Shown: positions 2,336 through 39,104 of the stretch, one piece after another | Numbering within the stretch: the first letter of the stretch is position 1 | Layout of the letters: every line of letters starts with the position of its first letter | From: Ashinkailepas kermadecensis | Lineage: Eukaryota; Arthropoda; Thecostraca; Neolepadidae | NCBI GenBank assembly: GCA_034440615.1 | Contig: JAOTOM010005124.1 | Location: forward strand, 756,001 to 820,000 | Reading direction: 5' to 3' | DNA length: 64,000 nucleotides | The notes under the pieces: model-generated | What the model was told of the DNA's origin: nothing | What the model saw: only the letters and a program-made list of their open reading frames with translations | The model's database searches: none | Program-made: the position numbers and the translations under genes

Positions 2336-3095
2336 GTGGTCACTACACCACCGATGCACCCCCTACCCACCACACCACCCTACGGCAGTACCCCCTACTC
2401 ACCCACCCCCACCACACCACCCTACGTCATTACCCCCTACCCCCACCACGCCACCCTACGTCATTACTCCTACCCCTCACCACACCACCATACGTCATTA
2501 CTCCCTATCCCCACCAAGCCAACTAGTCACTACCCCTACTCCCACCACACCACTCTACGTCACTGCCCCCTAACCCCACCACACCACCCTATGTCATTAC
2601 CCCCACCCCACCCCCAACACACCACCTTACGTCAGAATCCCCTACCCCACCACACCACCCGACGTCATTACCCCCTACCCCACCACACCACCCTACGCTA
2701 TTACCCATCTACCACCACCACACCACCCTACCCCCACCACACTACACCACCCTACGTCATTACCCCCGCCACCACCACCACACCACCCTATGTCATTACC
2801 CACCCACCCCCTACACCCACACCACCCGACGTCATTACCCCATCACACCACACCGCCCTACGTCATTGCCACCCTACCCCACCACAGCACCCTACGTCAT
2901 TGCCACCCTATCCCACCACACCACCCTACGTCATTACACCCCGCCACCACCAACACCACCACCACCACACCACCCTATGTCATTACCCACCCACCCCCCT
3001 ACACCCACACCACCCGACGTCATTACCCCCATCACACCACACCATCCTACGTCATTACCACCCTACCCCCACCACAGCACCAATCGGCTCCCGCC
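2336..3095. repeat. C-rich minisatellite with TACGTCATTA core
   Basis: About 20 degenerate units of 26-36 bp, with the pattern CACCACACCACCCTACGTCA followed by TTACCCC and CTACCC. The array abuts the donor of exon 24, whose edge on plus reads CTCACGTGATCT, so it may have grown from that junction. The pyrimidine-rich plus strand is long enough for triplex-type structures (inference). The core resembles a CRE/ATF site. Confidence 0.9.
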
Positions 3096-3099
3096 TCAC

Positions 3100-3229
3100 G
3101 TGATCTGCCTGAAGGCGTTGCGGCTCTCGCCGGACGTGAAGCCGAACTGGAAGTTGTCCCACACCTCGACGATGAGCGTGTAGGCCGCCTGCTGCTCGCG
3201 GTCCAGCGCCGCCCACACTGTGATCTCGC
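3100..3229 (-). CDS. Cadherin exon 24: EC10 with LDRE and G-strand
   Basis: The acceptor is gtggttcag|GC and the donor is AGATCAC|gtgagg; phase 1 in, phase 2 out, 42 complete codons. It encodes EITVWAALDREQQAAYTLIV, then EVWDNFQFGFTSGESRNAFR. The phrase FGFTSGESRNAF is a distinctive insert-bearing repeat that I associate with the same arthropod cadherin subfamily (memory). The intron downstream is a C-rich minisatellite whose TACGTCATTA core resembles the donor edge. Confidence 0.87.
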
Positions 3230-3394
3230 CTGAACCACACGCGACCCCCGGGTCAGGCCAGGTCGGGTCGTGTCACCACCGGCGGCACCGAATAATCGGC
3301 CATGCTACACGGGCAACATACATAGGCGTGTGAGTGAGTAATGCGAGCCGGTGTTGTGCCGTTCCATCTTTTGATATTTATTGATACTATAGGT

Positions 3395-3535
3395 ACCGTA
3401 TATTTTACCGTATATTATCCGATATACTATACCGTATGTTATGCCGTATATCATGCCTTGTAGTATGCTGTTTATTATGCCGTATTAATTATATCATATC
3501 CGTATTTATTACGCCGTATTTTTCTGCCTGTTATT
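3395..3535. repeat. Degenerate ACCGTATAT repeat
   Basis: Loose repeats of (T/A)CCGTAT(A/T)(A/T)T. They share vocabulary with the far better preserved GTATACCGG array at 12050-12475. Confidence 0.6.
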
Positions 3536-3637
3536 AGGTTGTCATATGTCTTCTCAAGCATTCTTGCCTTCCCGCGTCAATGACTCCCTCCGTTCCTCAG
3601 ATTTACGACCTTGACCTTTAGTGACTTGGAGACTAAC

Positions 3638-3754
3638 CTGTGTCGGCGTTGACCTGGAATTTTCCGCCGGACGACCGACGGTCGAGTCTGTATGTGAGGC
3701 TGCCGTAGTCGCCGCTGTCGACATCCCGAGCCTCAACCTGCACCACCAGCGAAC
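3638..3754 (-). CDS. Cadherin exon 23: core of EC10
   Basis: The acceptor is accgggcag|GT and the donor is GACACAG|gttagt; phase 1 in and out, 38 complete codons. It encodes SLVVQVEARDVDSGDYGSLT, YRLDRRSSGGKFQVNADT. The acceptor and first 30-odd exonic bases are repeated twice more upstream with a 64-bp period (to 3912). They reappear at 4435-4530. Confidence 0.88.
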
Positions 3755-3912
3755 CTGCCCGGTACCTCAGACCGTTAGCACGCCACATCTCGAGCCTCAA
3801 CCTGCACCACCAGCGAACCGGCACGGCACCACGCACCGTCAGCATGCCACATCTCGAGCCTCAACCTGCACCACCAGCGAACCGGCACAGCACCACGCAC
3901 CGTCAGCATGCC
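3755..3912 (-). repeat. Exon 23 acceptor-edge array
   Basis: Two further copies, 63-64 bp apart, of the exon 23 start with its acceptor region. On plus the shared word is GAGCCTCAACCTGCACCACC followed by AGCGAACC. The array begins inside exon 23 at about 3722. Confidence 0.88.
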
Positions 3913-4434
3913 ACGACAGCATTCAAATATTGGTTTTTCGTTAGATGTGAGATGTCGAATCGAGCGAGTAAAGTAGGATGTCGAAACTTGTCACTGTAGC
4001 ATGTCGTTTAAAATATCGTCAAAGTCCTTGAAGCCGAATTTTGAGCCCATTATGCACTCATACGTGTATGTTTTTTTAAATTGAGAGATACCCATTAAAC
4101 GAATACATATATTAATGATAATGACGGCAAGTACCATACTATCAACAAATCCTATTGTATAACAGACCACGTCATAGGTCTGTTATGTCTGCAGGTGTGT
4201 ATATCAGCTGTGTATTAGCGCCGGGAATTGTGCTACGACATGCTTGTGCATCAAAATCCGCATTTGGGAGCATACGCAAAATACTAATGTACGATGTTTT
4301 TAAAAGCGAGACATAGCGACTTCACAAACACATCAAGAAGCACGATGTCGATACTTCCTGGGGAAGGATGTCTATTAAGTGTTCAGAAAATGGTACATTC
4401 TACCCTACTTCGCTAATAATTTATCACTGCGCCG

Positions 4435-4530
4435 CGACATCCCGAGCCTCAACCTGTGCCATCGGCGAACGTGCACGGCACCTTACACCTGACGGTGCGT
4501 TGACGCCAAGACATCCCGAGCCTCAATCTG
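4435..4530 (-). repeat. Detached echo of exon 23 acceptor edge
   Basis: Two partial copies of the same exon 23 edge (GACATCCCGAGCCTCAACCT at about 4436 and GACATCCCGAGCCTCAATCT at about 4509) lie more than 500 bp from the main array. The remaining sequence in 3913-4850 shows nothing else I recognise. Confidence 0.8.
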
Positions 4531-4850
4531 ACAATAAGTATTCCAACAGGTACATGTATAACACGATGAATGCCAGCTGCTTCGAAGCTATCTGGTATCC
4601 AAAGTGAGGTGATACCACTCCAAATACCACTTGCACCGTAAGTCTGCACTCAATCCAGTTCGTATTTGGTCGGCCTGTCTGACTTTGCTACCAAGTCAAT
4701 TCTAATGGAAGAAATTTGGAAAATTCACGAATATTTTCTTGCTGATTGTAATTGCTATCATTAACATAATTGAATCGGAATTTCCCAAGGTTCCAATTTA
4801 TCAAGACAGGCCGCGACTACCTGGTTACCGGCAAGGTTAGTACTAGTCCC

Positions 4851-5665
4851 ATCACCACCGCAAAAGGTGCCTCCTTCGGTTCCCTCACCCATCAGGGGCG
4901 CACTCAATAGTCATCCCACTCGCCACCAGGGGAACCTCCTCTAGCTATCCGACCTACCGCCAGGGTCACCTCCAGTTCTCCCGCACACCACCAGGATCAC
5001 CTCCTCTAGTTATCCCACCTACCGCCAGGGTCACCTCCAGTTCTCCCGCACACCACCAGGATCACCTCCTCTACTTCTCCCGCCTACCACCAGGGGAACC
5101 TCCTCTAGTTATCCCACCTACCGCCAGGGTCACCTCCAGTTCTCCCGCACACCACCAGGATCACCTCCTCTAGTTATCCCACCTACCGCCAGGGTCACCT
5201 CCAGTTCTCCCGCACACCACCAGGATCCTCCTCTACTTCTCCTGCCTGCCACCAGGGGAACCTCCTCTAGTTATCCCACCTACCGCCAGGGTCACCTCCA
5301 GTTCTCCCGCACACCACCAGGATCACCTCCTCTAGTTATCCCACCTACCGCCAGGGTCACCTCCAGTTCTCCCGCACACCACCAGGATCACCTCCTCTAC
5401 TTCTCCTGCCTGCCACCAGGGGAACCTCCTCTAGCTATCCCACCTACCGCCAGGGTCACCTCCAGTTCTCCCGCACACCACCAGGATCACCTCCTCTAGT
5501 TATCCCACCTACCGCCAGGGTCACCTCCAGTTCTCCCGCACACCACCAGGATCACCTCCTCTACTTCTCCTGCCTACCACCAGGGGCACCTCCTGTAGTT
5601 CTCCTGCCTACCGCCAGGGTCGCGTCCGCTAGTTCTCCCGCCTACCACCAGGGTCGCGTTCTCTA
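4851..5665. repeat. 29-31 bp minisatellite from exon 22 donor edge
   Basis: About 27 alternating units of the type CACCAGGRTCACCTCCTCTA and GTTATCCCACCTACCGCCAG. The units nearest the exon align with the exon 22 donor edge (CTAGTTCCTCCACTCACCGA), suggesting origin from that junction. They form an imperfect 60-bp higher-order pattern. Confidence 0.88.
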
Positions 5666-5679
5666 GTTCCTCCACTCAC

Positions 5680-5758
5680 CGATAGGGGCGTCCTCGCGCA
5701 GAGTCACCACGGACTGGGTGTCCACAAACTGGGGGTTGTTGTCGTTCTCGTCCAGCAC
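5680..5758 (-). CDS. Cadherin exon 22: EC9/EC10 linker
   Basis: A small exon with acceptor gccaccgcag|GTG and donor CCTATCG|gtgagt; phase 0 in, phase 1 out, 26 codons plus one base. It encodes VLDENDNNPQFVDTQSVVTL, REDAPI, with a DENDNNP linker. A 29-31 bp minisatellite that starts from its donor edge fills 4851-5665. The acceptor-side sequence is also duplicated (5768-5960). Confidence 0.87.
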
Positions 5759-5767
5759 CTGCGGTGG

Positions 5768-5960
5768 CGGCGCCGTCAGAGTCACACGGACCCGTCACAC
5801 GTCACACGTCACACGTCACACGTCACGTGTCTATGGATGGCACACGGACCCGTCACAAACACACGAGGAGAGCAGCGATCAGAACCGAGCTCAGCGCCGT
5901 CAGAGTCACGCGGACCCGTCACAAAAAAAAACACGAGGAGAGCAACGATCAGAACCGAGC
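5768..5960. repeat. Exon 22 acceptor-side duplication and ACGTCAC repeats
   Basis: GCGCCGTCAGAGTCAC and CGGACCCGTCACA occur twice (about 5771 and 5897), as does CACGAGGAGAGCA. A pure CGTCACA run sits at 5792-5828. Confidence 0.85.
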
Positions 5961-6029
5961 TCGTACAACTCAACATTTTAGACGAGGGACAGGGAAAACC
6001 TACTTGGATGAGCATCGGAAACAGACAGC

Positions 6030-6235
6030 CACAGCCGCACCCAATTCAGCCACCAAAAACCACAGCCGCATCTATTCAGCAACAGAAAGCCACAGCCGCT
6101 GCCATTCAGCCACCGACAGCGACAGCCGCACGCAAAGCCACAGCCGCACCAATGCAGGGCCACTGAAAACCACAGCCGCACCCAATTCAGCCGCAGAAGG
6201 CCACCGCCGCACCTATTCGTGTCCACCCGAGTTCG
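6030..6235. repeat. CAGCCACAGCCGCA minisatellite
   Basis: Five to six units of about 36-42 bp built on AAACCACAGCCGCACCCAAT and TCAGCCACC. Open in several frames, with no sign of being coding. Confidence 0.85.
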
Positions 6236-6394
6236 GGACAGATTCGAGAGGCGCCCACCGGTCCGATGTCCCACCTGCACGTATGGGCGCTACATGACCA
6301 ATGAAGTCGATGCGCCCTGCAGCCCTACATAAGAATAACTAATAACTGTATAATAACTAATATAGCTAATAACTAACAATATAACGAACAATAT

Positions 6395-6560
6395 AACGTA
6401 CAATATAACTGAAATATTACTAAAATAATATATCTAAAATAATATAACTAAAATAATATAACTAAAATAAAGAACTAAAATAATATATATAAAATAATAC
6501 AACTAAAATAATATAACTAAAATATATATATATATATATATATAATAATATAACTAAAAT
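6395..6560. repeat. AT-rich ATAACTAAA repeat
   Basis: Repeats of ATAATATAACTAAA, with a short pure (AT)n block at 6524-6544. Confidence 0.85.
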
Positions 6561-6670
6561 AATATGACTAAAACGAATAACAAATAACGTAATAACTAAC
6601 TAACTAACCCACCGACTGATATAACTATAAACTAATACCTAATATCGTGATAACTAACTAACCAACCCAC

Positions 6671-6816
6671 CTGCACGTAGACATCGGCGTGAGCAGCACG
6701 CGGCGGTACGCCGCTGTCCGTGGCGCGCACGGTGAAGTTCAGCCAGCCGGTCAGCTCGCGGTCGATCTTGCTGCCCACCACTATCTCACCCGTCTCGGCG
6801 TCCAGGAACACCAGCT
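6671..6816 (-). CDS. Cadherin exon 21: core of EC9
   Basis: The acceptor is tctgtttcag|AG and the donor is GTGCAG|gtgggt; phase 1 in, phase 0 out. The split codon gives Glu, then LVFLDAETGEIVVGSKIDRE, LTGWLNFTVRATDSGVPPRA and HADVYVQ. A 14-base copy of the donor edge (on plus, CCCACCTGCACGTA at 6666) reappears about 400 bp away at 6270. A weaker one lies at about 6613. Confidence 0.88.
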
Positions 6817-6892
6817 CTGAAACAGACGCTGGGCTTTTGTCCAGTCCAATTGATGCAAACTGTGCTCTAACAATTTGTAATTCCGTCCCAAC

Positions 6893-6897
<5 letters not shown>

Positions 6898-6950
<53 letters not shown>
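6898..6950. repeat. (AT)n microsatellite
   Basis: Pure AT dinucleotides in the intron between exons 20 and 21. The stretch 6960-7600 beyond it shows no recognised feature. Confidence 0.97.
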
Positions 6951-7604
6951 TGTATGTACGGATGCATAATTAGAAGTTCACCGTTTGATCATCCAGGGCG
7001 TTTTCCAAACGGCAATTATGTGCTGATAGCGATTGTGACAATATTGTATACTTCACGCTGCAAATATCCCACTGATGCTGAAGCCGATCGTTACATTATC
7101 ATGACTTTATCCAGACTATGCTTGGGATACGCTGACGTTTGTGGGCCGAGGACGCATTATATCACTTGTTAATTAGGATAGGTCAGGTCGTAGGACGCAG
7201 AACAATGATCCCTGCTGGCTTACTGACGATTGCAGAGGGTGATACCATCAGGTACCAGTGGTAAAAGTGTGGTAGCGATAGTGACGCTGGGTAGAGCTAC
7301 ATCACGTCCTTTTTCATGGTGTCTATGGATGGTCAGAACCATCGTGGACTGCCAGAGCATATCACACAGCATATCACACAGCATATCACAGGTCATCGTA
7401 GTATATTATAGGTTGTAGGCTGTCTAGAAACCTTGCTCATCAAAAACGTTTTGTAGGTCCTGGAGAGTTACAACTTTCCAACTACTTTACTGGATATGCC
7501 GTGTATTGGTGAGATGTGGGAGGATATTTGCTGACGCTGATGAACTAATGATCATACGACACTTCTGTGTAACATGCTGAGGGCCTTGCAGGACGTACAC
7601 GATG

Positions 7605-7955
7605 CTCACCTTCGATATGCTAGGATCTGTGCAAGAATGTACTTGCCGCTCAACTATGATACGCTGGGGTTCGTGCAGAATATCATCGACGCTCACCTAT
7701 GATATGCTGTGGCCCATGCAGAATATCATGGACGCTCACCTATGACATGCTGGGGCCCGTACAGAATATCCTCGACGCTCACCAATGATATGCTGTGGCC
7801 CGCACAGAATATCCTCGACACTCACCTATGATATGCTGTGGCCCGTGCAGAACATCCTCGACGTTCACCTATGATATGCTGTGGCCCGTACAGAATATCC
7901 TCGACGCTCACCTATGATATGCTGTGGCCCGTGCAGCGTGTACTCGATGCTTCTA
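7605..7955 (-). repeat. 43-bp array of exon 20 donor edges
   Basis: Eight units at a strict 43-bp spacing (about 7609, 7653, 7696, 7739, 7782, 7825, 7868, 7911). Each holds the minus-strand word CACAGCATATCATAG|gtgagc or a variant, i.e. the last exonic bases plus the donor of exon 20. Confidence 0.93.
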
Positions 7956-8094
7956 TTGACGTCAACGTCCTCTGCCACCACGCTGACGATCGGAGTGCCG
8001 GGCTTGCTGTTCTCCATGACGGAGCGGCGGTAGTACGACTGCCGGAACTGCGGCGAGTGGTCGTTGACGTCCAGCAGCCGGACCGTCAGCGTGG
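7912..8094 (-). CDS. Cadherin exon 20: EC8/EC9 linker
   Basis: The acceptor is ccgtttcag|CC and the donor is ATCATAG|gtgagc; phase 1 in and out, 60 codons. It encodes [20 protein letters not shown], then [20 protein letters not shown], and ends [10 protein letters not shown]. The donor edge is repeated with a 43-bp period about eight times (7605-7955). The unit is not a multiple of three, and reading past the first donor meets TGA in the next unit, so only the first donor is productive. Confidence 0.87.
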
Positions 8095-8257
8095 CTGAAA
8101 CGGGGTCACGCGTGCACTGGCGACATCTATGGAGGGTTGCGTGAGGCTAGGGTCGGTTCGCACCGCCATCGCACCGGAAAAAGGTCCGCTACGTATGTGG
8201 GAGCGTGCACTATTCATGAAGGATCCGTCGGCTTGATCTCGGCAAATATCGGTGATG

Positions 8258-8447
<190 letters not shown>

Positions 8448-8449
<2 letters not shown>

Positions 8450-9258
8450 GTACCAGCGATTGGTTCAACAGTACGAGACGATGGTTGTCGTCATGTGAAG
8501 TTGATTGGGGGGCCAAATGAACTTTTTGATTGCCAAAGCTGCATCGGAAACCATTTGTATCTAGTGTGCGCCAATATGCCCAATGATTAAGCTTCGAATC
8601 GATTGTGGGGCTTAAAGCAATGATGGAATGGGCCAGTAGCTCCCAGTAGCTGATGCAGTGACACACATATATGGGATAAAGCTTCCGTTTTTTCCCTTAT
8701 GTTTTCCGCGATAAAAGCACTGCAAAGCCGGCCAAATGATACAAACTGCATATGAATTTCTCGCTGTGAAGATGATGGCTGCTTTTCCGGTTCCTATCGT
8801 GGAATGATGATTGAAATACCTGATTTTCTTCTTCATGTCTACTGCTCTCTTGTTGACATTGAAGAACTGTTTTTGGGACAATTCTAGCCGACGTTTTTCG
8901 ATTTTGTCTACGAAAAGTAATTGTAGCCTGTTAGTTCAAGTGCCCTGCAGATCAACACATGACATAGGGAAAGTAAACAATTTCCTTCCATAAAATACAT
9001 AAATAGAAAAGTCCTTTGACTAGTACACGGTACACCCATACGCCGGACTGTTGTTAATAATAACTCTTTCTCCTTAAAACAAACAAGAATATCTCAACCC
9101 TTCATGTTTCGCCACCAACGTATTTGATACACCGTGAAAAAAAAACTTTACAGGAAAAAAAACTTTACAGACTACTAGCGAACTGCTAGCGTACGCTGCC
9201 GATTGACTGGATCACCGGTAGCGGTGCAGTAGCTGAACATAACGTTGGACGCACTTAC
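8448..9258. other. Intron without recognised features
   Basis: AT-rich unique sequence between exons 19 and 20. No exon with matching splice phase or RNA gene was seen. Confidence 0.6.
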
Positions 9259-9347
9259 CCGTGGCCGTCTGACGCGAGTTCATTGCTGCCAAATCCTCCA
9301 CCCCGACCACCAGACGAATGGTTTCCACTCTCTCCCTGTCCAGCGGC
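9259..9347 (-). CDS. Cadherin exon 19: EC8 strand with LDRE motif
   Basis: A small exon with acceptor tttcttcag|G and donor GCCACGG|gtaagt; phase 2 in, phase 1 out, 29 complete codons. It encodes RPLDRERVETIRLVVGVEDL, AAMNSRQTAT. It joins exon 18 as GVIRTA-R-PLDRER and exon 20 as QTAT-A-TLTVRL, both normal for cadherins. No junction array is seen. Confidence 0.86.
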
Positions 9348-9877
9348 CTGAAGAAAAAAAACGCATGACGACATCCAACATTTGAAACAGCACCGGCATA
9401 GCAAATATGGTGAGAGTGATGAATATCAACCGACAGATTCGGCCCATAGTCGATGCGCCTTTCCTACCAGTAGCTGAATATCTCCAGCCTCGCACGCAAA
9501 TGGAAATTTAACACTTCCTATAATTTACTGAAACATGAACAGATTCTCACTGCTTGTGCATTGGAGAGAATTGGAATGAATGACGACACATTAGAGTACC
9601 AAAATAACCGTAAGGCGTTTTACAGTATTGCTTTCCAAAACAAGCTCGTGTTTCTAGTTCATTTGTGTCGCTTTTGCAGGAAGCAGGTGCGGAGTCCTAC
9701 GTTACGACGGTAGTTGGCCCATACGCTACGCCGGTAGTTGGCCCCTACGCTAAGCCGATAGCTGTACTCTCACTGTCGCACAAATTTCCCAACACCAGCC
9801 GGAGAAGGGACAGCCTTGGTTTTCTTCTGAGGTGGGACCACACGGCCTTTTCCAACATGTTTGCCGGACGTCCTGAG

Positions 9878-9943
9878 CCGGCGCCATTAGCCGTGAATGT
9901 ACATAAAGTGTGTCGTGAACCACCGAATAAACAATAAACATCC
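9878..9943 (+). mobile_element. SINE family C, 3' fragment
   Basis: Contains GGCGCCATTAGCCGTGA, CATAAAGTG and GTCGTGAACCACC, ending AATAAACAATAAACA, matching the 3' half of the full copies at 22275-22452 and 22599-22780. Confidence 0.75.
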
Positions 9944-9944
9944 T

Positions 9945-11520
9945 GACCCAATCGTGACCGTCCTCCGCCCCCCCCCCGCCCCCTCCTCCCACACCCAGGC
10001 AGTGACCATCCCTCATTGCCTTAGTATTGCCAAGGTGAGGGCAGAGGGCAGGGCTTGTTTGACTAGGACGACAAGGCCACAGTTGCTAAGCACCGCCCCC
10101 TCCCCCCTCCCCCCACACTCACAATCCCTAGTACAGACCCTGGATAAGAGGGACGGGTAAAACGGTACTCCGGAGCGACGACTTGCCCGTGTGGAACCAG
10201 AGTTTTACCGTTTCCAAAACATTCCTCGGTTCTGGGATGCTACGAAAAGAGCAGGCAACCACTCACTGAAAGTTCCGGGGAGAGGGGGAGGGACGATTTG
10301 ACCCCATCCTCTGTTTTCCTTTAGATAGCTCGCAAGCCCCTTTGACATTTGGCATACCTTTAGATACTTGATGACAACACATTGTGCAAAAAATAGAGAT
10401 TGAGCGGACTCCGCAGATGTCTCGGAAGTTGGGTAAGGTCATGACTTCGACCATGTCGACCAACTTCGACCATTCGACCAGGCCATGACTTTCGACCAAC
10501 GCGTATTTCAATGGTACATTGAAGCATGTTTTCACGTATATAGCACACAAGGTGCAAAAAAACATAGAATGCAGATAGGAATTATCCATGAAAAACATAC
10601 GAAGACACAAGCGGTCTCAGTTCAGGTCACAGGATGAAACGATTATTCAGATGACAAGATCAGAAGATGATTCGGGAAAGACTTCTTGTGTGCATAACTT
10701 TGTAACTAATCGATATCTCCAAGCAACCGGAATGTTCGCGAGGGCATATTATGTCCAGAGTGCTTCAGGTTTCAAGTCAGTATTAGGTCAGGTCATCGTA
10801 ATATGACCTGGAACGTCCTGAGAGTATCGGTACGGTAGGCACTCTGAAATCCAAAATGCGAAATATTCCGACTTAAAAATGGCTAATCCAGGGTACGCTT
10901 GACGACGACCTGATTTTTCCCCAAAACGATCATGACCCCAAAATTGAGTTGAAAAGTTGGATTTTTTCTTCGCTGTCTAATTGTTTTCCTTCATGCGCTT
11001 TGTTCTCCAAGCACGCTAACATGGAACATTTTATCATTTAGCTTTGCACTGCTGTCACTCATTGTCATTTCTCCGAGCAAAATTTGTTTCGAACGTCGTC
11101 AGTTTCCACATTCTCCAGGTACTTGACCTTCACCTGATCGGCGACCCTGACCATTGTCGCATGTGCCAGTGCGTTAGTCGAAGACGTCAGTTTGCATAGC
11201 GTCAATACTGAAGCACGAAATCAAATTTGCGTCACGACTGGTGTACGAAGACTACGATGAAGACTTGGTCACTGGCTGTACTCCGATAATGACCCGCTCG
11301 ACCTGACCTGGAAGGCAAGGTCGCTGTAGCTAGGGGATGCATACCTCTCCCCAGCTTTGGACGAAATTAAAATTAACAGCCTTGGACGAGCTTAACATTA
11401 GACCGAATGGCCTATAGGCGTTCCATGGAAAGAATTGACATGAATATTAATCCTGCCATTCCCCCCTCCCCCAATTTGGAACAGCCTTCCACCACTGCTG
11501 AAAGGTCAACCAAAAGGGAT
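9945..11520. other. Intron without recognised features
   Basis: Unique sequence with small C-rich runs near 9970 and 10090. The short open frames here lack splice sites in phase with the cadherin and carry no motif I know. Confidence 0.6.
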
Positions 11521-11527
11521 TGCATGG

Positions 11528-11795: not shown

Positions 11796-11814
11796 CTGGT
11801 GGCAGGAAACAAGA

Positions 11815-12475: not shown

Positions 12476-12511
12476 CACCAGTTGCCTCCTGTTGCCAGTG
12501 ACGTCACTCAC

Positions 12512-28800: not shown

Positions 28801-28810
28801 ACTCACTGAC

Positions 28811-30259: not shown

Positions 30260-31190
30260 TCTGTTTCCTTCCAGAAAACTAACTATTCATCCTTGATAAT
30301 TGATTCGAGTACCTTGCAGACTAGGTATGTGAGGTTTACTGGCCTATAGTTTTCAACTTTCCCTCATTCTCCTTTCTTGAAAATAGGAACTACATTTGCC
30401 CTTTTCCAATCTGTTGAAATTTGATTTTGTGAAACTGATCTACAAAATATTATACTAAGTATAATTGCCAGTTCATTTTCAGCTTCCCGCAATACCATAG
30501 CATAAATTCCATCAGGTCCTGCTGCCTTGTTTGGCTTTATTTTTATGATATAATTGAAAACAACATCACTATCAATGAAATCAACATCGTGTATCTGATC
30601 ACCTGTCACTGAACTGTGGTTCACGGTTGGCAGATTAGTCACATCCTCCACTGTAAACACTGATTTAAACTGCTTGCTCAGCTCCTCAACCATCTCACCA
30701 TCCTCACTCAATATAGTCCCATTTACTTCCAGTGGACCAATTGTGCTTGAGACTTTACTTAGCTTGTAGAAACTAAAGAACTTTTTACTGTCCACATTAC
30801 AGTTCCTAGCCAAATCCAATTATTTTGCTCGCTTTGCTGCTCTTGTTTTCTGCTTCACAGCATCTCTAGCTTTTTTATACGACTTTAGATTTACGATATT
30901 TGAAGCTTCCTTAAATACTCTAAATGCATCTTTCTTTGCCTTAATTGCTTTCATCAAATCTGGTGTAAGCCATGCTGGCTTTCCTACCCTTCTTTTGCGC
31001 CTTTGCTTTTGGGGGACATGTCTAATCTGAATTTCCCTCAAGTAAGATTTGAACTTTTCCCACATTTCACAGGCATTTAAATCAAAGAATTCTTCTTCCC
31101 ATTTGATGGCACTTAAAGCCTCTCTCATGCAGTCAAAGTCTGCCCTGTTATAATTTGGAATCTTTGCCAAATTATCCTTGATTGTCCTTG

Positions 31191-32093
31191 CTACTTTGCC
31201 TTGAATCTCACTATGTTTTGGTCACTTCTTCCCAGAGTTTCTCCTACAGTCAAGTCTTGAACTAAATCACTTAAATCTGAGAAGACAAGGTCCAAGAATG
31301 AGCCCTGCCTGGTTGGTTCCGTTACAAACTGGTGTAAGAACAAGTCCTCTTCAAGGCATTTCCTAAACAGTTTACATGATGGGGAGCCAACACCAACATT
31401 TTCATATCCTTTTAGATTAGAGTCACCAAGAATAAGGCATTTCCTCTGAAAGTTTCTACTGATTTCCTCACAAATCACTTTATCGAGCTCCAGTTGCTGA
31501 GAATGTGGCAAGGTTCCTGATCGATACAAAGCTCCTATCCTCAGTTTATTGCTGTTGCCTTTTCCACAGCAACATCAAGCCAAATGGACTCCACAGACAC
31601 ATTTTTTACCCCATCTGCTACTTTTTGAGAACTGTATAAGCTATTCACATAGAGCATTACACCACCCCCTTTCACTTCTGGACCCCTATCGCATGAAAAC
31701 ATATTGTATCCCTGGATCTCATATTCCTGCAAGTTATCCCCAAAATATCCCTCACTGACCCATGTTGTTGTTATTGGGGTTTAGGGGCGCATCATCACTG
31801 ACCCATGCCTCAGTAATGCAAACAAAATCTGGTTTCTCCTCAGCAACATAACACTTGAACTCATCAAATTTGGATCGAATGCTCTGGGCATTAAGCATCA
31901 TACACTTAACAAAAGTTCCATAACACTCTTTGGCTTTTTCATGTTGAGTAGCTCTATCATCTCTGGATGAGCTACCACTCTGCCCCCTTGATCTACTGCT
32001 ATCCCCATTTGCTGACTGTGAGGTTCTATTGCCTATGCTGTCACTATCGGCATATCCCTGAGATGGCAATGCCACTCCTTCCCCTCGCCCCAA
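31191..32093 (-). pseudogene. AP-endonuclease domain of the LINE, broken
   Basis: Three frame pieces of an APE-like endonuclease, which nicks target DNA for insertion. The first piece begins with a Ser/Arg-rich leader and LNAQSIRSKF. The middle has GGGVMLYV. The last has LILGDSN and SDQNIVRF in place of the usual SDH. A SINE tail is inserted in it at 31765-31794. Confidence 0.85.
31765..31794 (-). mobile_element. 30-bp SINE tail nested in the LINE
   Basis: Only 30 bp (TTGTTGTTATTGGGGTTTAG then GGGCGCATCA), flanked by perfect 13-bp duplications TCACTGACCCATG at 31752-31764 and 31795-31807. An extremely 5'-truncated insertion. Confidence 0.9.
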
Positions 32094-32264
32094 CCCATTA
32101 TCTAGTTTCCCGGAAGGACATGTTCATATACTTTGCTTAACACTTGCACCCCCTTCTCGGAGAAGTGCAGGCCATCCCTCTGATAGAGGTCCCATGGCCA
32201 TAATACCTGCACCACTTGTCAACAAAGGTCAAACCTAACTCATTGCAGAGCGTACCTACCCTAC

Positions 32265-33290
32265 CTACCCAGGTCAAATCACACGGGTCAAGGTCAGGTG
32301 AATCAAGAATGGAATCGTGATCGCATCATAATTGTATGGTAATTGTACAAGAATTGTATCGCGATGTAGAATTGTATTGTAATTGTGGATAGACACAATT
32401 GACGATGTTCATTATTGGCAAATCCACAGGAAGTATTTCAAGTGGTGATATTTCAATATTACGTGAATGCTTACGGACGTGTCGCTAGGCACCACTAGGA
32501 ACAATAATACACACCTGCCTATCTATCACATGGCCAGAAGCACAATGTTAGAATACAATGTTAGAATGTTCGAAAATAACATCGAATCACGCCACATTTG
32601 CTTGACCTCCGACTCTTGACCGCCTCTGCCACATTTCACAAATATAAAAGCATGTTGGAGGTTCAATATGTGTCCCAGAGATACGACGTGTGAGCTATAT
32701 GAAGAGGCTGATTCAGCTCCCGTCCTCGATTAAATGATTACATATCCTAGATAGATAGATAGCCTAGATAGATGGGTAGATAGCCTAGATCCCGGAAATG
32801 TGGCAGCTGGTGCATAGTATTATTCCTACTGGAAAAGCATCAGCTGAAAAGCGCCATCGTTGCCGCGACACCACTTGGAAGTACCACAAAGCCCAGCTGT
32901 TCTATGTGCTGACCTGTCAGATGAGTTAAAAGATGCAGTATATATATACTACATAATATCATAATAAATAAATAATAGTGTACAGAGGTGATGTGTTGGC
33001 TTGGCTAGCACCTCAATGTTGCCCCCCCCCCCCCCCACCCCCACCCAATAATGTCAACTTGCAACATAGGAGCCTGTGGAGTGTGCCCCCAATTCATTTT
33101 GGTCTGCCCATTGCCTTTATGGACCCCTCCCTCCCCAACCTCCCACCGAATAATGTTCAAAAATCCACACCCTTGATAGTGTATATACTACATAACAGAT
33201 GATGCAAAAATCATCATAGCACCAAGTCAACAGCCATATTAACGTCACCTATCGCACTAAACACCTCACGACAAACAATGTTAGACCAGC
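32265..33290. other. Intron without recognised features
   Basis: Unique AT-rich sequence between exons 4 and 5, with a GATAGATA patch near 32750 and a C run near 33025. Confidence 0.55.
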
Positions 33291-33297
33291 GCCATCT

Positions 33298-33403
33298 ATG
33301 CCGATGTGCAGCAGCGCCACCTACGACTGACCCGCAGCAGCGCCACCTGCGACTGTACAGCAGCGCCACCTACGACTGTACAGCAGCGCCACCTACGACT
33401 GAC
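33298..33403 (-). repeat. Exon 4 donor-side array
   Basis: Four units of about 27 bp, on plus CAGCAGCGCCACCTACGACT. Two units include GACCCG, the image of the CGG|gtcagt donor. Confidence 0.85.
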
Positions 33404-33575
33404 CCGTGTTGGCGCCGCCGGCGGCCCGGTCGACGGCCAGCACGAGCAGCTGGTAGAACGGCTGCCGCTCGTAGTCCAGCTGACCCTCGAGTCTGAGCAC
33501 GGCGCGTCCGTCGCGGGTCGACACCGAGAACAGGTCGCGCTCCGTCTGCGACTCGGCGTGCAGCCGATACACAAC
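33404..33575 (-). CDS. Cadherin exon 4: core of EC2
   Basis: The acceptor is ctcgtcag|GTTGTG and the donor is ACACGG|gtcagt; it enters in phase 0 and leaves in phase 1, with 57 codons plus one base. It encodes VVYRLHAESQTERDLFSVS, then QLDYERQPFYQLLVLAVDR, the LDYE variant of the LDRE motif. It joins exon 3 as FGQ|VVYRL. The 3' flank repeats the donor-side sequence about four times (33298-33403). Confidence 0.88.
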
Positions 33576-33746
33576 CTGACGAGACCACCGGTAGATGTCA
33601 CTGGGGTAGCACGTCGAGTGAAGCAGGTTTTACGAATGGTGTAAGAATGTTATCAACATGCACAAAACATGCGTGTAACATGCATGCGACATGTACAAAG
33701 CATGCATGTAACATTAAAGCGACATGTATATGACATGTACATATGA

Positions 33747-33755
<9 letters not shown>

Positions 33756-33815
<60 letters not shown>
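33756..33815. repeat. (AT)n microsatellite
   Basis: Pure AT dinucleotides, next to ACATGCATGT-type repeats at 33655-33735. Confidence 0.97.
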
Positions 33816-33817
<2 letters not shown>

Positions 33818-34163
33818 TGTATATTATTAGAGGATAGGTACACATTCTTCCGACTTTGTGCTTGATAACTGATAGCTTTCGAGAACCGCACGGCTACCTT
33901 AGTCGGCCTAGGTGTAATCGGATCGATTGACGCAGTTCAAAGACAAACTAACAAATCTGAAGTTGAAGGGAATTTATCTTAGCTGCATCTGGTATGTCGT
34001 AGATCTCTAGAATGTACCGTCGACACCTGTCAATGAAACATGGCAATGACATAAATTAGTCGGCAAGCGACACCTTTCCGAACTTAGGTGATGTTTGCCA
34101 ACCAAAAAAAGTTCCATATTTGCACCCACGGAATGCAATGGAAAAAAAGTTCCATTGCATTGC

Positions 34164-35138
34164 GCCTCGGCCGAACGGGCCCTCGTCGCTGTCGCCACTG
34201 ACCTGGCCGAACGGGCCCTCGTCGCTGCCGCCACTGACCTGGCCGAACGGGCCCTCGTCGCTGTCGCCACTGACCTGGCCGAACGGGCCCCCGTCGCTGC
34301 CGCCACTGACCTGGCCGAACGGGCCCTCGTCGCTGCCGCCACTGACCTGGCCGAACGGGCCCTCGTCGCTGTCGCCACTGACCTGGCCGAACGGGCCCTC
34401 GTCGCTGCCGCCACTGACCTGGCCGAACGGGCCCTCGTCGCTGCCGCCACTGACCTGGCCGAACGGGCCCTCGTCGCTGCCGCCACTGACCTGGCCGAAC
34501 GGGCCCTCGTCGCTGCCGCCACTGACCTGGCCGAACGGGCCCTCGTCGCTGTCGCCACTGACCTGGCCGAACGGGCCCTCGTCGCTGTCGCCACTGACCT
34601 GGCCGAACGGGCCCTCGTCGCTGCCGCCACTGACCTGGCCGAACGGGCCCTCGTCGCTGTCGCCACTGACCTGGCCGAACGGGCCCTCGTCGCTGTCGCC
34701 ACTGACCTGGCCGAACGGGCCCTCGTCGCTGCCGCCACTGACCTGGCCGAACGGGCCCTCGTCGCTGCCGCCACTGACCTGGCCGAACGGGCCCTCGTCG
34801 CTGTCGCCACTGACCTGGCCGAACGGGCCCTCGTCGCTGCCGCCACTGACCTGGCCGAACGGGCCCTCGTCGCTGCCGCCACTGACCTGGCCGAACGGGC
34901 CCTCGTCGCTGCCGCCACTGACCTGGCCGAACGGGCCCTCGTCGCTGCCGCCACTGACCTGGCCGAACGGGCCCTCGTCGCTGTCGCCACTGACCTGGCC
35001 GAACGGGCCCTCGTCGCTGCCGCCACTGACCTGGCCGAACGGGCCCTCGTCGCTGCCGCCACTGACCTGGCCGAACGGGCCCTCGTCGCTGCCGCCACTG
35101 ACCTGGCCGAACGGGCCCTCGTCGCTGACGCCACTGAC
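34164..35138 (-). repeat. 36-bp array of exon 3 donor edges, about 27 units
   Basis: Nearly perfect 36-bp units. On minus each reads GACGAGGGCCCGTTCGGCCA then G|gtcagtggcggcagc, i.e. the last 21 exonic bases of exon 3 plus its donor and 15 intronic bases. Counting inward from the exon, 27 donors are intact and a 28th unit is truncated. Thirty-six is a multiple of three and no unit has a stop, so every donor is in frame. Open frames on both strands across the array are a by-product. Confidence 0.97.
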
Positions 35139-35354
35139 CTGGCCGAACGGGCCCTCGTCCCTGTCGGTGGCGCGCAGCACGGCCAGCACGCGCGGCGCCG
35201 AGTCCTCGGCCGCCGACACGGTGCTCTCGTACGGCGCGAACAGGGGCGCGTTGTCGTTGACGTCCTCCACCAGCAGCAGCAGCGACTGCGTCACGAACGC
35301 CTCGCCCAGCCGGCCGTCGGTGAGCGTCAGCACCAGGTTGTACTCGTCCTCCAG
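35139..35354 (-). CDS. Cadherin exon 3: end of EC1, start of EC2
   Basis: The acceptor is cttcgcag|CTGGAG and the first donor is GGCCAG|gtcagt; the exon is phase 0 at both ends, 72 codons. It encodes LEDEYNLVLTLTDGRLGEAF, then the linker VEDVNDNAPLF and EC2 start up to ATDRDEGPFGQ. Both junctions have expanded into 36-bp tandem arrays, acceptors on the 5' side (35355-35830) and donors on the 3' side (34164-35138). The minimal exon is given here. Using any later donor would add multiples of 12 in-frame codons, so the real 3' end could be longer. Confidence 0.87.
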
Positions 35355-35830
35355 CTGCGAAGATTACATCAAGTTATACTCGCCTTCCAAATGCGAATGT
35401 GATAACAGGTGATATTCGTCCTCTATCTGTGAAGATTATGTGAAGTTATTCAGCTGAGAATATGACAACAAGCTATTCTCGTCCTACAGCTGTGAAGATT
35501 ACAGCAGACTATGGTAGTCTTCCAGCTGTGAAGATGGTGACAGTTCATAATCGTCCTCCAGCAGTGAAGATGGCGACATGTTGTACTCGTCCTCCAGCTT
35601 GGAAGATTAGAACGGGTCATGGTCATCCTCCAGCCGTGAAGATTACATCAAGTTATACTCGCCTTCCAAATGTGAATGTGACAACAAGCGACATTCGTCC
35701 TCTAACTGTGAAGATGACATCAGGCGATTATCTAACTGTGAAGACGATATGAAGTTATACGCGTCCGCCAGTTGTGCAGATGAGAACAAGCCGTGTCCTT
35801 CCTCCATCTGTGAATATGACACCGCCAGGC
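35355..35830 (-). repeat. 36-bp array of exon 3 acceptor edges, about 13 units
   Basis: Degenerate 36-bp units (at about 35387, 35423, 35486, 35521, 35557, 35593, 35629, 35665, 35701 and so on) holding the plus word GTCCTCCAGCTGTGAAGAT. That is the minus-strand acceptor CTTCACAG|CTGGAGGAC of exon 3. Several units keep a good AG acceptor. Confidence 0.9.
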
Positions 35831-36065
35831 AGTGACAGTGAATGACAGTGAATATACTCGGGTGAATACTACGTTGACCTCCAGATCCACCACCAGATCC
35901 ACCAGATCCATTCCCAAGGTGTGAATCGGAATCACATCGTCAGGACTAGTATTCGATCAGGTTCAGCTTGTCAGATTCACGCTCAGGATAGCGATTCAGA
36001 TGCAGACAGATTACTCCGCCGCCAAGGTCCCGGCGATCAATGTCGGACTGTGTTGTCTGTTAGTG

Positions 36066-36520
36066 TCAACACCGGACCATGGTCCGTCAACACCGGACCA
36101 TGGTCCGTCAACACCGGACCATGGTCTGTGGACATCGGACAATGGCCGTGGACACCGGACCATGGTCCATGGATACCGGGCCATGGTCGGTGGCCACGGA
36201 CCATGGTCTGTCAACACGGGACCATGGTCCGTGGACATCGGACAATGGTCCGTGGATACCGGACCATGGTCCATGGATACCGGACCATAGTCGGTGGACA
36301 CGGACCATGGTCTGTCAACACGGGACCATGGTCCGTGGACATCGGACCATGGTCCGTGGGCATCCGACCATGGTCCGTCAACACCAGATCATGGTCCATG
36401 GCCACCGGGCCATGGTCCGTAGACACCGGGTCATGGTCCGTGGACACCGGACCATGGTCCGTGAATACCGGACCATGGTCCATGAATATCGGACCATGGT
36501 CCGTGTACACCGGACCTATG
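36066..36520. repeat. 21-bp array with GGACCATGGTCC palindrome
   Basis: About 21 units of ACCGGACCATGGTCCGTGGA and variants. Each contains the perfect 12-bp palindrome GGACCATGGTCC or a near form. Confidence 0.95.
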
Positions 36521-36548
36521 AGGTGGTCACGTGTATGCTGATGCATAC

Positions 36549-36578
36549 ACTTGTTGTTGTTCTTCGGGTTTAGGGGCG
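36549..36578 (-). mobile_element. SINE 3'-tail fragment
   Basis: TTGTTGTTGTTCTTCGGGTT then TAGGGGCGCATCA. Flanks TGATGCATACAC and TGGTGCATACGC look like a slightly diverged target duplication. Confidence 0.75.
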
Positions 36579-36589
36579 CATCAACTGGT

Positions 36590-36900
36590 GCATACGCTTA
36601 GTATGCATACACTTAGTATGCATACTTAGAGGCAGTGCTTATAGTTGTTGAAGCGACTGATTTCACCGGAAGGCGGCAGGCCGCCTACCAGTGCACACAG
36701 AGTCCGTGGCAAGGCAGCAGTAGGCTGATTCTAGGACTTAACAAATAGGCTAGATCTTTGTAATTAAAATTGAGCTCAAACTACTCAGCATACACCTTTA
36801 CTTTACTATTATACATACTAATATACTATTACACTATTATACTATAACTACCAAACTACACTTTTACTTTTACTTTACTATTACATATGCAATCACTTGG
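36590..36900. other. Intron without recognised features
   Basis: TTAGTATGCATAC repeats near 36595-36625, then AT-rich unique sequence. Confidence 0.5.
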
Positions 36901-36978
36901 CCCGCCTTTCAGTTCCCCTCCAGAGTCGCATGGCCCTCTCCACGGTCCCAGTTCGCCATCCAGTCACGCGTGACCCAC

Positions 36979-37130
36979 CTCTCGGTCCAGTTCTCTCCTG
37001 AGGACGATGTCGGCCTCCGTGTCGCCCGCGGGCCTGATTTCCAGCAGACGCCACCCGACCTGACCCAGGATGGCGAACTGCAGCCGGTCGCCGTCCGGGT
37101 CGTAGCCCCGCAGGCGGTATATGACGCTGC
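36979..37130 (-). CDS. Cadherin exon 2: core of EC1
   Basis: The acceptor is ccggcag|gc and the donor is GAG|gtgggt. It enters in phase 1, completing a Gly codon with exon 1, and leaves in phase 0. It encodes GSVIYRLRGYDPDGDRLQF and ends RRELDRE, the calcium-binding DPD and LDRE motifs of a cadherin repeat. The length is 152 bp, exactly two bases plus 50 codons. The intron upstream contains the 12-bp array at 37262-37600. Confidence 0.88.
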
Positions 37131-37261
37131 CTGCCGGGTCAATGCCGGGTCAATGTCCGCATCAGGTCAATGTCAGGTCAATGTCCGCATCGTTGGCGTC
37201 AACAGACAAGGCGCAGGAGCGCGTGCGATTTTCGAACGCACGAACGGCGTGGTGCGCAACA

Positions 37262-37600
37262 GCTTTGCAGGGTTGTTTGCAGGGTTGTTTACAGGGTTGT
37301 TTGCAGGGTTGTTTACAGGGTTGTTTGCAGGGTTGTTTGCAGGGTTGTTTACAGGGTTGTTTACAGGGTTGTTTGCAGGGTTGTTTGCAGGGTTGTTTAC
37401 AGGGTTGTTTGTAGGGTTGTTTACAGGGTTGTGTACAGGGTTGTTTGCAGTGTTGTTTTCAGTGTTGTTTGCAGGGTTGTTTACAGGGTTGTTTACAGGG
37501 TTGTTTGCAGGGTTGTTTGCAGGGTTGCTTGCAGGGTTGTTTGTAGGGTTGCTTTCGGGGATATTGCAGGGTTGTTTTCAGGGTTGTTTGCTAATTGTTT
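37262..37600. repeat. 12-bp GCAGGGTTGTTT array
   Basis: About 27 units with A/G variation in the second base. The period is a multiple of three, so frames stay open; not coding. Confidence 0.97.
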
Positions 37601-38007
37601 CATATGGTCGTGGAAACGTCAAAGCATATTGGCCATGACTCACGAGTGAACGCACGGCATATGTAAGGTGCCGGAAAATATCCGAAGAGGTGAAAAGACG
37701 CGAAACTTGCGGGAAAATCTACTGATGCGCTGTAAGTCGTCCCCGCTAAGGGAGATCTGAGAACAGGATTTACTTAAAACAAAGTGGGAAGAGAATAACA
37801 GAACACGTACAAAGCGTGGTGGACAAAACACAGGGTGGGTGAGGTGACAGAGTTGGCCTTGCATAGACCTGTTTCTTGGAATGCAGAGAGCAGAAAAGTG
37901 GTGGAGTGGATCATATTTTGGCGTCCTCGTATGAAGTTGGGGAACTTCAATTAACACCTATCATCATCCCCAATTCCCAATTAACACCTAAGCATTGTCA
38001 GGCCTGG

Positions 38008-38164
38008 TTGGTTATTGGTTTTTACGACACGTCGACTGTTGTCATATAGCGTCGCCAATCTCTCACGCCGATTGGTCGCGGGCGAAGAGTAGCGACAGGT
38101 GAGACTCGAACCCACAATCTTTCGATTGTGAGACGAGCATCTTACCCCTAGACCACTCGTCCCC
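38008..38164 (-). mobile_element. SINE family A, full-length copy
   Basis: Read on minus: tRNA-like head GACGAGTGGTCTAGGGGTAA with B box GGGTTCGAGTCTC, body CACCTGTCGCTACTCTTCGC, tail CAATAACCAACC. Perfect 15-bp target duplication CATTGTCAGGCCTGG at 37993-38007 and 38165-38179. Confidence 0.93.
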
Positions 38165-38179
38165 CATTGTCAGGCCTGG

Positions 38180-38640
38180 AACTTTCGCGACGTTACTATC
38201 TTTGCTATTCGTCTCGGAGAGTCATATGACAATATCTGTGCTAATATTTGGTGGCGAGGTCTGCCCAATAAAGGAGGAGTGGCAGTAGTACAATTTAGCT
38301 GGGCATCCTCTGCCTTCACTTGCTCACCACTAGAAGCTTCACATGGCCATTAGCTAAGACAAATGAGTGAGCAATGACACTCCTGTCCAACTATTAATGG
38401 ACAAAGGACTAAGGAAGTGTTACTACGACTGTGAATAACTATTACTTAGACTACCTATGAAGACCGTCTTATCCACTAACAATTGAGGCGAAGACAGTCA
38501 GCGCCCTCCTGCAATGTGCTGGTAAAGAGATGAGTAAACATCAAGTTCAAAATGTTTTACTGTTCTTGGTTCAAAATTGAGTGGTGTATCTTCTGATTAT
38601 TTACCGTCTTTATTTTATTTATTTATTAGATGAGTTGTCC
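38180..38640. other. Intron 1 without recognised features
   Basis: Unique sequence between exons 1 and 2. Nothing recognised. The same holds for 37605-37990. Confidence 0.55.
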
Positions 38641-38667
38641 GTCAACAAAACTTCGAGAACTCCTGGA

Positions 38668-39104
38668 GCTCGAACTCCCCCACTGATGCGTATACTCCCA
38701 CGCAGACGCTTCGAGATCCCCTGGAGAATGCCCGGAGAACCTCTGGAGAACACCTGTCAACTCTGGAGAACACCTGGAGAACACCTATCCCTGGATAAAC
38801 TTAGAGAGTTCGAGAATCCCTGGCACTCGGGTTCACTCACTGATGCATGCACTCCCTCCCGCGGACGCTTCGAAAACTCCTAGAGAACTCCTGGAGGACC
38901 CTGGAGAAGCCATGGAAAACTCATGGAGAACCCCTGGAGAACCCCTGGGGAACTCCAGAAAATCTGGGGTTTGAACGCACCCACTTTTGCGTGTGCTCCC
39001 TCCCGCAGACGCTTTGGGAACACCCGGAGAACTCTCGGAAAACCCGTGGGGAACTCCCGGAGAACCCCTGGAGAATCCACGGGGAATCCGAGTAATCTTA
39101 GGAC
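38668..39104 (-). repeat. Exon 1 donor-edge copies with CTGGAGAAC filler
   Basis: Three diverged copies of the exon 1 3' edge, spaced 140-160 bp (about 38668, 38828, 38969), recognised on plus by GCGTGTGCTCCCTCCCGCAG followed by ACGC. Between them runs a 9-bp CTGGAGAAC repeat. Confidence 0.85.

Follow-up and report, generated by a model that had tools for sequence, protein, structure and literature searches.

Mirage-like minisatellites at exon–intron junctions of a barnacle cadherin gene and of PRP8

Several genes of the barnacle Ashinkailepas kermadecensis carry minisatellite-like arrays whose units combine an exon edge, the splice signal and the adjacent intron. We consider it likely that these are minisatellites of the type called mirages in amphioxus, whose births are hidden by splicing. 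In the genes sampled, births across junctions probably exceed the uniform expectation by ca. 3–6-fold, depending on the threshold, an excess resting on two genes, the cadherin gene CDH23 and PRP8.

A cadherin-23 gene and the arrays at its junctions

The window analysed here is a stretch of 64 kb (64,000 nucleotides) of contig JAOTOM010005124.1. The original prediction of a cadherin gene, which lies on the minus strand, and of its exon boundaries, was borne out. Thirty-nine exons, of which 25 lie inside the 64-kb window while the remainder extends to C4627:730512, join into a stop-free frame of 1787 residues (one N at the exon 13 boundary), and the protein shows 57% identity with cadherin-23 of Procambarus over 99% of the query. 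None of the best 120 of 459 matches to CDH23 was a named barnacle protein (six of the 120 had no name). COX1 matches that of the barnacle Leucolepas longa at 98%, and the protein and COX1 searches point to a barnacle host rather than to amphioxus. A second haplotype of exon 4 was sought in the assembly, and a single match only was returned. Scanning the flanking open reading frames for further genes gained nothing.

CDH23 was chosen because of the pattern, and PRP8 independently of it. Junctions were counted in three genes (154 junctions: CDH23, 76; PRP8, 52; CLTC, 26), and array births in four, the fourth being COPA, which is partial (6 introns, one array). Two of the 28 introns of PRP8 (6 and 7) were unresolved and were excluded from the counts. 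SF3B1 and XPO1 were located in the assembly and lie outside the sample. POLR2A, which is one frame across query residues 7–1223, and EFTUD2, which is one frame across nearly all of the searched part, were of little use as control genes, and a polymerase subunit at C3987 was dropped as a control since divergence blurred its exact junctions.

A junction was scored as affected if a 30-mer spanning it had a near copy. In the window part of CDH23, 9 of 48 junctions passed this test, corresponding to 8 exons. A tenth, the exon 13 donor, also has copies; the donor itself is interrupted by T-rich inserted sequence, and GT is intact in four downstream copies. If it is counted, 9 exons are affected, so the earlier estimate of about half of the 25 exons was too high (8–9 of 25). 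Arrays of all the periods that had been given were present (Table 1). The claim that the repeat unit is the junction itself held for those of 36, 43, 93, 29, 58, 64, and 49 bp and failed for the 39-bp array, which is intronic only. Two further arrays span acceptors, that of exon 3 with a period of 72/36 bp and that of exon 10 with one of 91 bp.

At the exon 3 acceptor, AG was kept in four of the five upstream copies; at the exon 3 donor, GT was kept in all 26 further copies, and the array is open in the frame of the exon; in the 64-bp array at the exon 23 acceptor, AG was absent from both copies. The 23-bp array at exon 4 passes the 30-mer test, yet only ca. 3 exonic bases are copied, and it thus adjoins the junction rather than crossing it. 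Because the units differ in length and sequence between arrays, they must have arisen separately, in agreement with the original prediction.

Table 1 Positions of CDH23 and of the arrays at its junctions, numbered within the window.
Feature	Position	Strand	Reference base or basis
CDH23 (cadherin-23/Cad88C ortholog), exons 1–25 of 39	256..39244	(-)	protein matches and exon joining
28-bp duplication, intronic only, ending six bases before exon 2	37137..37191	(-)	first exon base 37130
72/36-bp array over exon 3 acceptor	35344..35722	(-)	first exon base 35354
36-bp array, 27.6 copies, over exon 3 donor	34169..35163	(-)	first intron base 35138
23-bp array from 2 bases inside intron 4	33305..33401	(-)	first intron base 33403
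91-bp duplication over exon 10 acceptor	23225..23409	(-)	first exon base 23291
39-bp array, intronic only, ending three bases before exon 12	20726..20901	(-)	first exon base 20722
93-bp (3 x 31) array over exon 12 donor	20385..20584	(-)	first intron base 20573
T-rich insert of ca. 60 bases at the expected exon 13 donor position	19581..19640	(-)	
49-bp array, copies of exon 13 end	19342..19578	(-)	30-mer search: four copies with GT
58-bp array over exon 14 acceptor	19005..19170	(-)	first exon base 19033
29-bp array over exon 18 donor	11600..11690	(-)	first intron base 11675
43-bp array, 7.8 copies, over exon 20 donor	7600..7936	(-)	first intron base 7911
64-bp array over exon 23 acceptor	3721..3914	(-)	first exon base 3754
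34-bp array, intronic only, from ca. 18 bases inside intron 24	2366..3081	(-)	first intron base 3099

Placement of arrays relative to splice junctions

Over the three genes, 20 of 154 junctions passed the 30-mer test (CDH23, 13/76; PRP8, 6/52; CLTC, 1/26), comprising 10 donors and 10 acceptors. In one first-order random sequence matching the cadherin gene in length and composition, no chance 30-mer match was obtained. TRF found 17 arrays that extend 5 bases or more into both the exon and the intron at a junction. The exonic sequence copied ranged from 3 to 67 bases (median 23). All 83 copies within 1.5 kb of 21 junctions lay on the intron side, a position that fits the earlier proposal that duplications are tolerated where splicing hides them, and AG or GT was kept in 70 of the 83. 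Arrays were mostly at one end of the intron; only three introns (CDH23 13 and 28, PRP8 25) were affected at both ends. Most copies had diverged individually from one another. Their splice dinucleotides were intact in 66 of 79 cases (0.84) compared with 0.84 for their other dinucleotides, and in 40 of 53 (0.75) compared with 0.78 when the 27-copy array was excluded. Splice dinucleotides in the copies thus decay as fast as the remaining ones.

Near copies of 30-mers were rarer in exon interiors than in introns in each gene (CDH23, 4.6% vs 21%; PRP8, 0.7% vs 8.6%; CLTC, 0.1% vs 1.1%). Measured against present-day intron bases, junctions of the three genes showed no excess (20 observed vs 22.1 expected of 154), nor did they at three other thresholds; in the window part of CDH23, 21% of intronic 30-mers passed the test (19.9% without low complexity) compared with 19% of junctions. 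This base-by-base null was set aside because an array of c copies weighs c times in it, and the view that the pattern is chance, which derives from this null, was rejected on the same ground.

Under a birth null, chosen after the data had been seen, in which each array counts as one event, 17 arrays crossed a junction in the four genes against 4.43 expected. For PRP8, CLTC, and COPA together, 6 crossed against 1.48 expected (P 0.0013). In PRP8, 6 of 52 junctions were hit against 1.4 expected (P 0.001–0.002); in CLTC and in COPA there is a single array, which does not cross a junction, and outside CDH23 the signal thus lies only in PRP8. Circular shifting, which keeps the clustering of arrays, gave 4.47 expected crossings, and none of 5000 shifts reached 17; for arrays crossing or lying within 25 bases of a junction, 27 were observed against 10.4 expected. 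When arrays were restricted by identity, the birth null gave 9 against 1.90 expected at ≥90% matches and 5 against 0.91 at ≥95%. Within 25 bases of the junction on the intron side, births reached 2.34 per kb, compared with 0.1–0.66 in all deeper bins (three genes). The predicted non-random placement at splice sites is therefore seen when each array is one event, and it repeats in PRP8.

An array-placement test confined to introns (CDH23, 11 vs 3.1; PRP8, 6 vs 1.2; CLTC, 0 vs 0.1) was replaced by the birth null and circular shift because an edge effect is built into it. The original prediction had also proposed a test for enrichment of array starts within 30 bp of splice sites. Counted over array ends, CDH23 gave 19 of 148 vs 11.0 expected, PRP8 4 of 30 vs 4.0, and CLTC 1 of 2 vs 0.3. 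This statistic, which overlooks arrays that extend deeper into exonic sequence, shows no clear excess outside CDH23, the gene that prompted the finding.

The sequence AG|GT was present at 16 of the 20 affected junctions and 63 of the 145 others (Fisher P 0.003, post hoc), with P 0.009 for acceptors and P 0.089 for donors when the types were separated, also post hoc. Affected junctions had higher GC (0.621 vs 0.577, P 0.018), and the introns bearing them were longer (median 1594 vs 848, P 0.005). GC and intron length may be the source of part of the junction excess.

Origin of the junction arrays

In the explanation we favor, a short tandem duplication would arise across an exon–intron boundary, its extra copies would land in the intron, and the exon-proximal donor or acceptor would stay in use. 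With that site in use the mRNA would be unchanged, and the array would therefore be free to expand and drift. The protein is continuous from exon to exon across the exon-proximal sites, and splicing would ignore the array copies. The excess would stem from mutation, junctions being prone to tandem duplication, rather than from survival. An exploratory extension is that AG|GT copies may serve as self-cancelling sites, either dual-specific or recursive. The combined proposal, in which boundaries are hot spots of tandem duplication at three to six times the intron rate and the AG|GT copies are self-cancelling dual-specific or recursive splice sites, is put forward tentatively, as somewhat unlikely.

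A real possibility, though short of an even chance, is that births are uniform, exonic arrays are purged, and arrays at junctions and in introns survive with no preference for the junction. Array content is 0.13 at the junction and 0.13–0.20 through the intron, and 60 bases inside the exon it has dropped to 0.02; the count against present-day intron bases, the expected number of PRP8 array ends near junctions, and the neutral decay of the copies all agree with such tolerance. However, the counts with one event per array, under both the birth null and the circular shift, run against it, and they do so for young arrays too. The same young arrays bear on survivorship, according to which junction arrays would be detectable for longer, their exonic copy being held by selection and undeletable. 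This is plausible in principle, and divergence in the exonic part of the unit would be expected to run at roughly half the neutral rate, but the excess was no smaller among arrays with ≥90% or ≥95% matches, and we regard survivorship as unlikely. If the introns themselves had been born when an exon segment containing AGGT was duplicated in tandem, copies of the exon edge would be left at the intron ends as relics. The post hoc enrichment of AG|GT, the gain of an intron in potato by a boundary-crossing tandem duplication, as reported in PMC4974935, and a similar model proposed for amphioxus globins in those of PMC3087553 speak for such relics. The length of the affected introns and the location of most arrays at one end speak against them, making this origin improbable.

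Two explanations concern the arrays themselves. They could be partly coding, the in-frame 36-bp array, for example, adding 12-residue repeats to exon 3; the frame is open through this array and its unit is a multiple of 3. Homologs, however, pass from exon 3 to exon 4 without an insert, and a length divisible by 3 was seen in only 5 of the 17 units that cross a junction, roughly what chance would give, so that a coding role is very doubtful. False tandem copies from long-read errors appear less probable still: the T-rich insert that breaks the exon 13 donor could be such an error, but exon interiors hold few arrays although errors would strike exons too, and most copies have diverged individually.

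If the hot-spot proposal is true, boundary minisatellites would be a general, convergent route to intron growth and new splice sites and no peculiarity of amphioxus. The arrays offer a test bed for why arrays start at junctions, for how the spliceosome chooses among up to 27 near-identical donors, and for whether junction arrays feed intron gain. The decoy junctions that they contain can mislead gene predictors.

Comparison with known systems

The original prediction knew of no described system of this kind. This was mistaken: going by the passages on mirages in PMC3087553 and PMC3902484, amphioxus has the same structure, minisatellite-like duplications of exon–intron boundaries, in Adh3, the globin genes BflGb6 and BflGb9, troponin C, and PGBD5. 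According to these passages, both 5′ and 3′ boundaries are hit, with units of 10–72 bp in Adh3 and ca. 150–160 bp in the globins; AG or GT is kept in many copies, and length instability and undisturbed splicing are reported. The barnacle arrays likewise have units that join the edge of an exon to the splice signal and the intron next to it, occur at donors and acceptors, and place their copies on the intron side, many with AG or GT. They differ in their host, a barnacle (Arthropoda), in being found in three genes, and in having been counted against nulls. The mirage cases described in those passages are all cephalochordate, and we take the host to be the place of discovery rather than a defining trait. 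No case of splice-junction repeats in arthropods was found among the records listed by a literature search, and the matching passages of the barnacle genome literature do not mention junction repeats. The occurrence in an arthropod of a pattern known from amphioxus, in the highly conserved splicing gene PRP8 as well as in a cadherin gene, suggests a repeatable process.

Other systems share part of these features. The repeats of earthworm metallothionein are intronic, as presented in the corresponding passage of PMC12783039. In human UBC and VCX3A, as described in the pertinent part of PMC10809524, dual-specific splice sites with tandemly repeated AGGT occur, and splicing can hide repeat expansion; among the affected barnacle junctions, 16 of 20 have AG|GT (post hoc), a possible parallel. 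The same part of PMC10809524 gives the UBC intron as a multiple of the coding repeat, whereas the barnacle arrays occupy part of the intron, and intron length divided by unit gave a whole number in none of 11 introns divided by hand (e.g. 1563/36, 1095/43, and 760/93). The potato case (PMC4974935) likewise involves a boundary-crossing tandem duplication, from which in potato a new intron resulted. Ordinary intronic minisatellites resemble the barnacle arrays in period and copy number; the barnacle arrays differ from them in that the unit holds the exon edge and the splice site, and in that births at junctions exceed the uniform expectation.

Junction copies in the cadherin gene

The window, C4627:756001–820000, lies in the assembly of Ashinkailepas kermadecensis (908 Mb in 4689 contigs). 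The COX1 of this assembly shares 98% identity with that of the neolepadid barnacle Leucolepas longa and 91% with a cluster that carries the label Balanomorpha. Among the 120 matches listed for the draft protein of the minus-strand cadherin gene in the window (37–54% identity over 88–100% of the query), all named organisms were arthropods. Introns were placed from homology combined with donor and acceptor scores. With 39 exons separated by 38 introns, the full model encodes 1787 residues free of stops once the exons are joined; exon 13, which has a broken donor, lacks one base, represented by an N. This model showed 57% identity over 99% with Procambarus cadherin-23; the gene is a cadherin-23/Cad88C ortholog (CDH23). 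Equal-scoring cadherin hits on two other contigs, C4324 and C1500, and hits paired on opposite strands inside C4324, point to haplotypes that were both retained or to a palindromic assembly.

The original prediction placed tandem arrays seeded on splice junctions at about half of the 25 exons in the window. Such junction-spanning arrays are present, but fewer than stated: the 30-mer test, which looked no more than 1.5 kb away for ungapped copies, 80% or more identical, of the junction-centred 30 bases, detected near copies at 9 of the 48 window junctions (the donors of exons 3, 4, 12, 18, and 20 and the acceptors of exons 3, 10, 14, and 23). Zero such copies were found in one random sequence with the nearest-neighbour composition of the gene. 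A tenth junction would be the donor of exon 13, which has four GT-bearing copies downstream. The frame read through the T-rich insert at exon 13 runs into a stop without having reached another intact donor copy; this insert may be a real insertion, a heterozygous allele, or an assembly error. The exon 4 donor copies include only about 3 exonic bases, and a 39-bp array previously named as a junction array ends three bases short of exon 12. Since the 36-bp array is open in five frames, long spurious genes would be called there by ORF prediction.

Coordinates of features in the window and in other parts of the assembly
Location	Strand	Feature
Window 19581-19640		T-rich insert, about 60 bases, at the expected exon 13 donor position
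Window 29053-32123	minus	Several-frame ORFs inside intron 4, resembling non-LTR retrotransposon reverse transcriptase by eye
Window 34169-35163		36-bp array; >400 codons open in three minus-strand and two plus-strand frames
Window 59667-61248		45-bp unit, 35 copies; longest array in the right part of the window
C4627:820001-830000		Stretch L004, opening with a run of N; 2500 N within the 164-kb join
C4324:275490-277820 and C1500:24581-26911		Equal-scoring cadherin hits at five places
C223:38474-39067		Second COX1-like copy, interrupted, on the same contig as COX1
C1390:57514-57993		COX1-like piece (stretch L013), a nuclear insertion by appearance (by eye)

Junction copies in other genes

The sample was widened by three more genes from this genome, for which length, conservation, and a split structure were the sole criteria: PRP8 (26 of 28 introns resolved), the clathrin heavy chain gene CLTC (13 introns), and COPA (6 introns; gene in part). 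The references for their models were human sequences. With COPA left out, the 30-mer test showed 20 of 154 junctions to be affected (CDH23, 13/76; PRP8, 6/52; CLTC, 1/26). When the exon 13 donor was included (21 junctions), copies lay downstream of donors and upstream of acceptors, and all 83 of the 83 copies within 1.5 kb were on the intron side. PRP8 intron 16 contains five copies without differences across the 30 bases tested, and all five match the true site in donor score. Arrays accounted for 21%, 8.6%, and 1.1% of intronic 30-mers in CDH23, PRP8, and CLTC, and for 4.6%, 0.7%, and 0.1% of those in exon interiors, respectively. We take the scarcity in exon interiors to reflect purging by selection. 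When a duplication crosses a junction, the exon-proximal copy would stay intact and the surplus would go into the intron.

Random placement or junction preference

Two nulls gave opposite answers on whether junctions carry an excess of arrays, and this is the crux of the question. Against present-day intron bases, 20 affected junctions were observed and 22.1 expected, and no excess appeared at three other thresholds either. Array content was 0.13 at the junction; on the intron side it stayed at 0.13–0.20 for 400 bases, and on the exon side it dropped to 0.02 by base 60. The 27-copy array, however, added about 1000 array bases to its own intron, whereas its founding duplication covered 36. Because the founding event alone can hit a junction, each array should be counted once. 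In the birth null, every array was collapsed to one unit, births were uniform across the collapsed introns, and an array was crossing when it extended at least 5 bases to each side of the junction. In the four genes, 17 arrays crossed against 4.43 expected; other unit or smallest-period choices gave 4.3–5.2 expected in three genes. For PRP8 alone, 6 crossed against 1.40 expected (1.64 with the largest period), and for PRP8, CLTC, and COPA together, 6 against 1.48 (P 0.0013). Circular shift, a second placement null that preserves array clustering, gave 4.47 expected for the 17 crossing arrays, and 10.4 for the 27 that cross or lie within 25 bases of a junction. The 25 intron bases next to the junction had 2.34 births per kb, and bins further in had 0.1–0.66 (three genes).

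The statistic originally proposed, the number of array ends no more than 30 bases from a junction, exceeded expectation in CDH23 (19/148; 11.0 expected) and not in PRP8 (4/30; 4.0 expected), with 1/2 against 0.3 in CLTC; it gives no support for junction preference outside CDH23, and is insensitive to arrays that extend deeper into the exon (as far as 67 bases). Since CDH23 was selected because of the pattern, the independent weight lies with one gene, PRP8. Longer detectability of junction arrays does not account for the excess, which persisted among arrays with at least 90% matches (9 crossing against 1.90 expected) and at least 95% (5 against 0.91). GC content is about 0.60 at exon edges and declines to 0.47 by intron base 140. 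Affected junctions are GC-richer than the others (0.621 vs 0.577) and in longer introns (1594 vs 848), so GC or gene region may account for some of the excess; among non-crossing arrays the dependence on GC is weak (mean 0.496 vs 0.483 for introns). The claim that array births prefer junctions is still fragile.

Copied splice sites and amphioxus mirages

The splice dinucleotide was retained in 66 of 79 copies (0.84 vs 0.84 for their other dinucleotides) and, without the 27-copy array, in 40 of 53 (0.75 vs 0.78). As the splice dinucleotides were retained about as often as the others, decoy sites do not seem to have been selected for or against. Among the 17 crossing units, just 5 have a length divisible by 3; thus, as a group they do not appear to be coding. 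In post hoc tests, AG|GT spanned 16 of 20 affected and 63 of 145 other junctions (P 0.003; acceptors, 7/10 vs 19/73, P 0.009; donors, 9/10 vs 44/72, P 0.089). AGGT sites are described as usable as either splice site, and repeat expansion as open to hiding by splicing (PMC10809524). AG|GT copies could therefore cancel themselves, a possible lead on the choice among many identical sites.

Tandem arrays (period at least 10) occupy 22.7% of the window, which is not comparable with published barnacle repeat shares because these vary with method: 3.2% (RepeatMasker) or 18.5% (WindowMasker) in Pollicipes, 3.53% in Capitulum, 33.4% in the genome of PMC11331182, and 58% in Sacculina. No arthropod case of junction-spanning arrays was found among the literature matches listed, in a coverage mostly outside subscription journals. 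The mirages of amphioxus are tandem repeats across exon-intron boundaries; Adh3, globin, and other genes carry them, and they are suggested to be length-variable and harmless to splicing (PMC3087553). PGBD5 and troponin C are further such genes (PMC3902484). Beyond these known mirages, the barnacle would add the still fragile junction preference. The structure of its arrays is the same as that of the amphioxus mirages, which, as far as could be seen, puts this structure in a second phylum.
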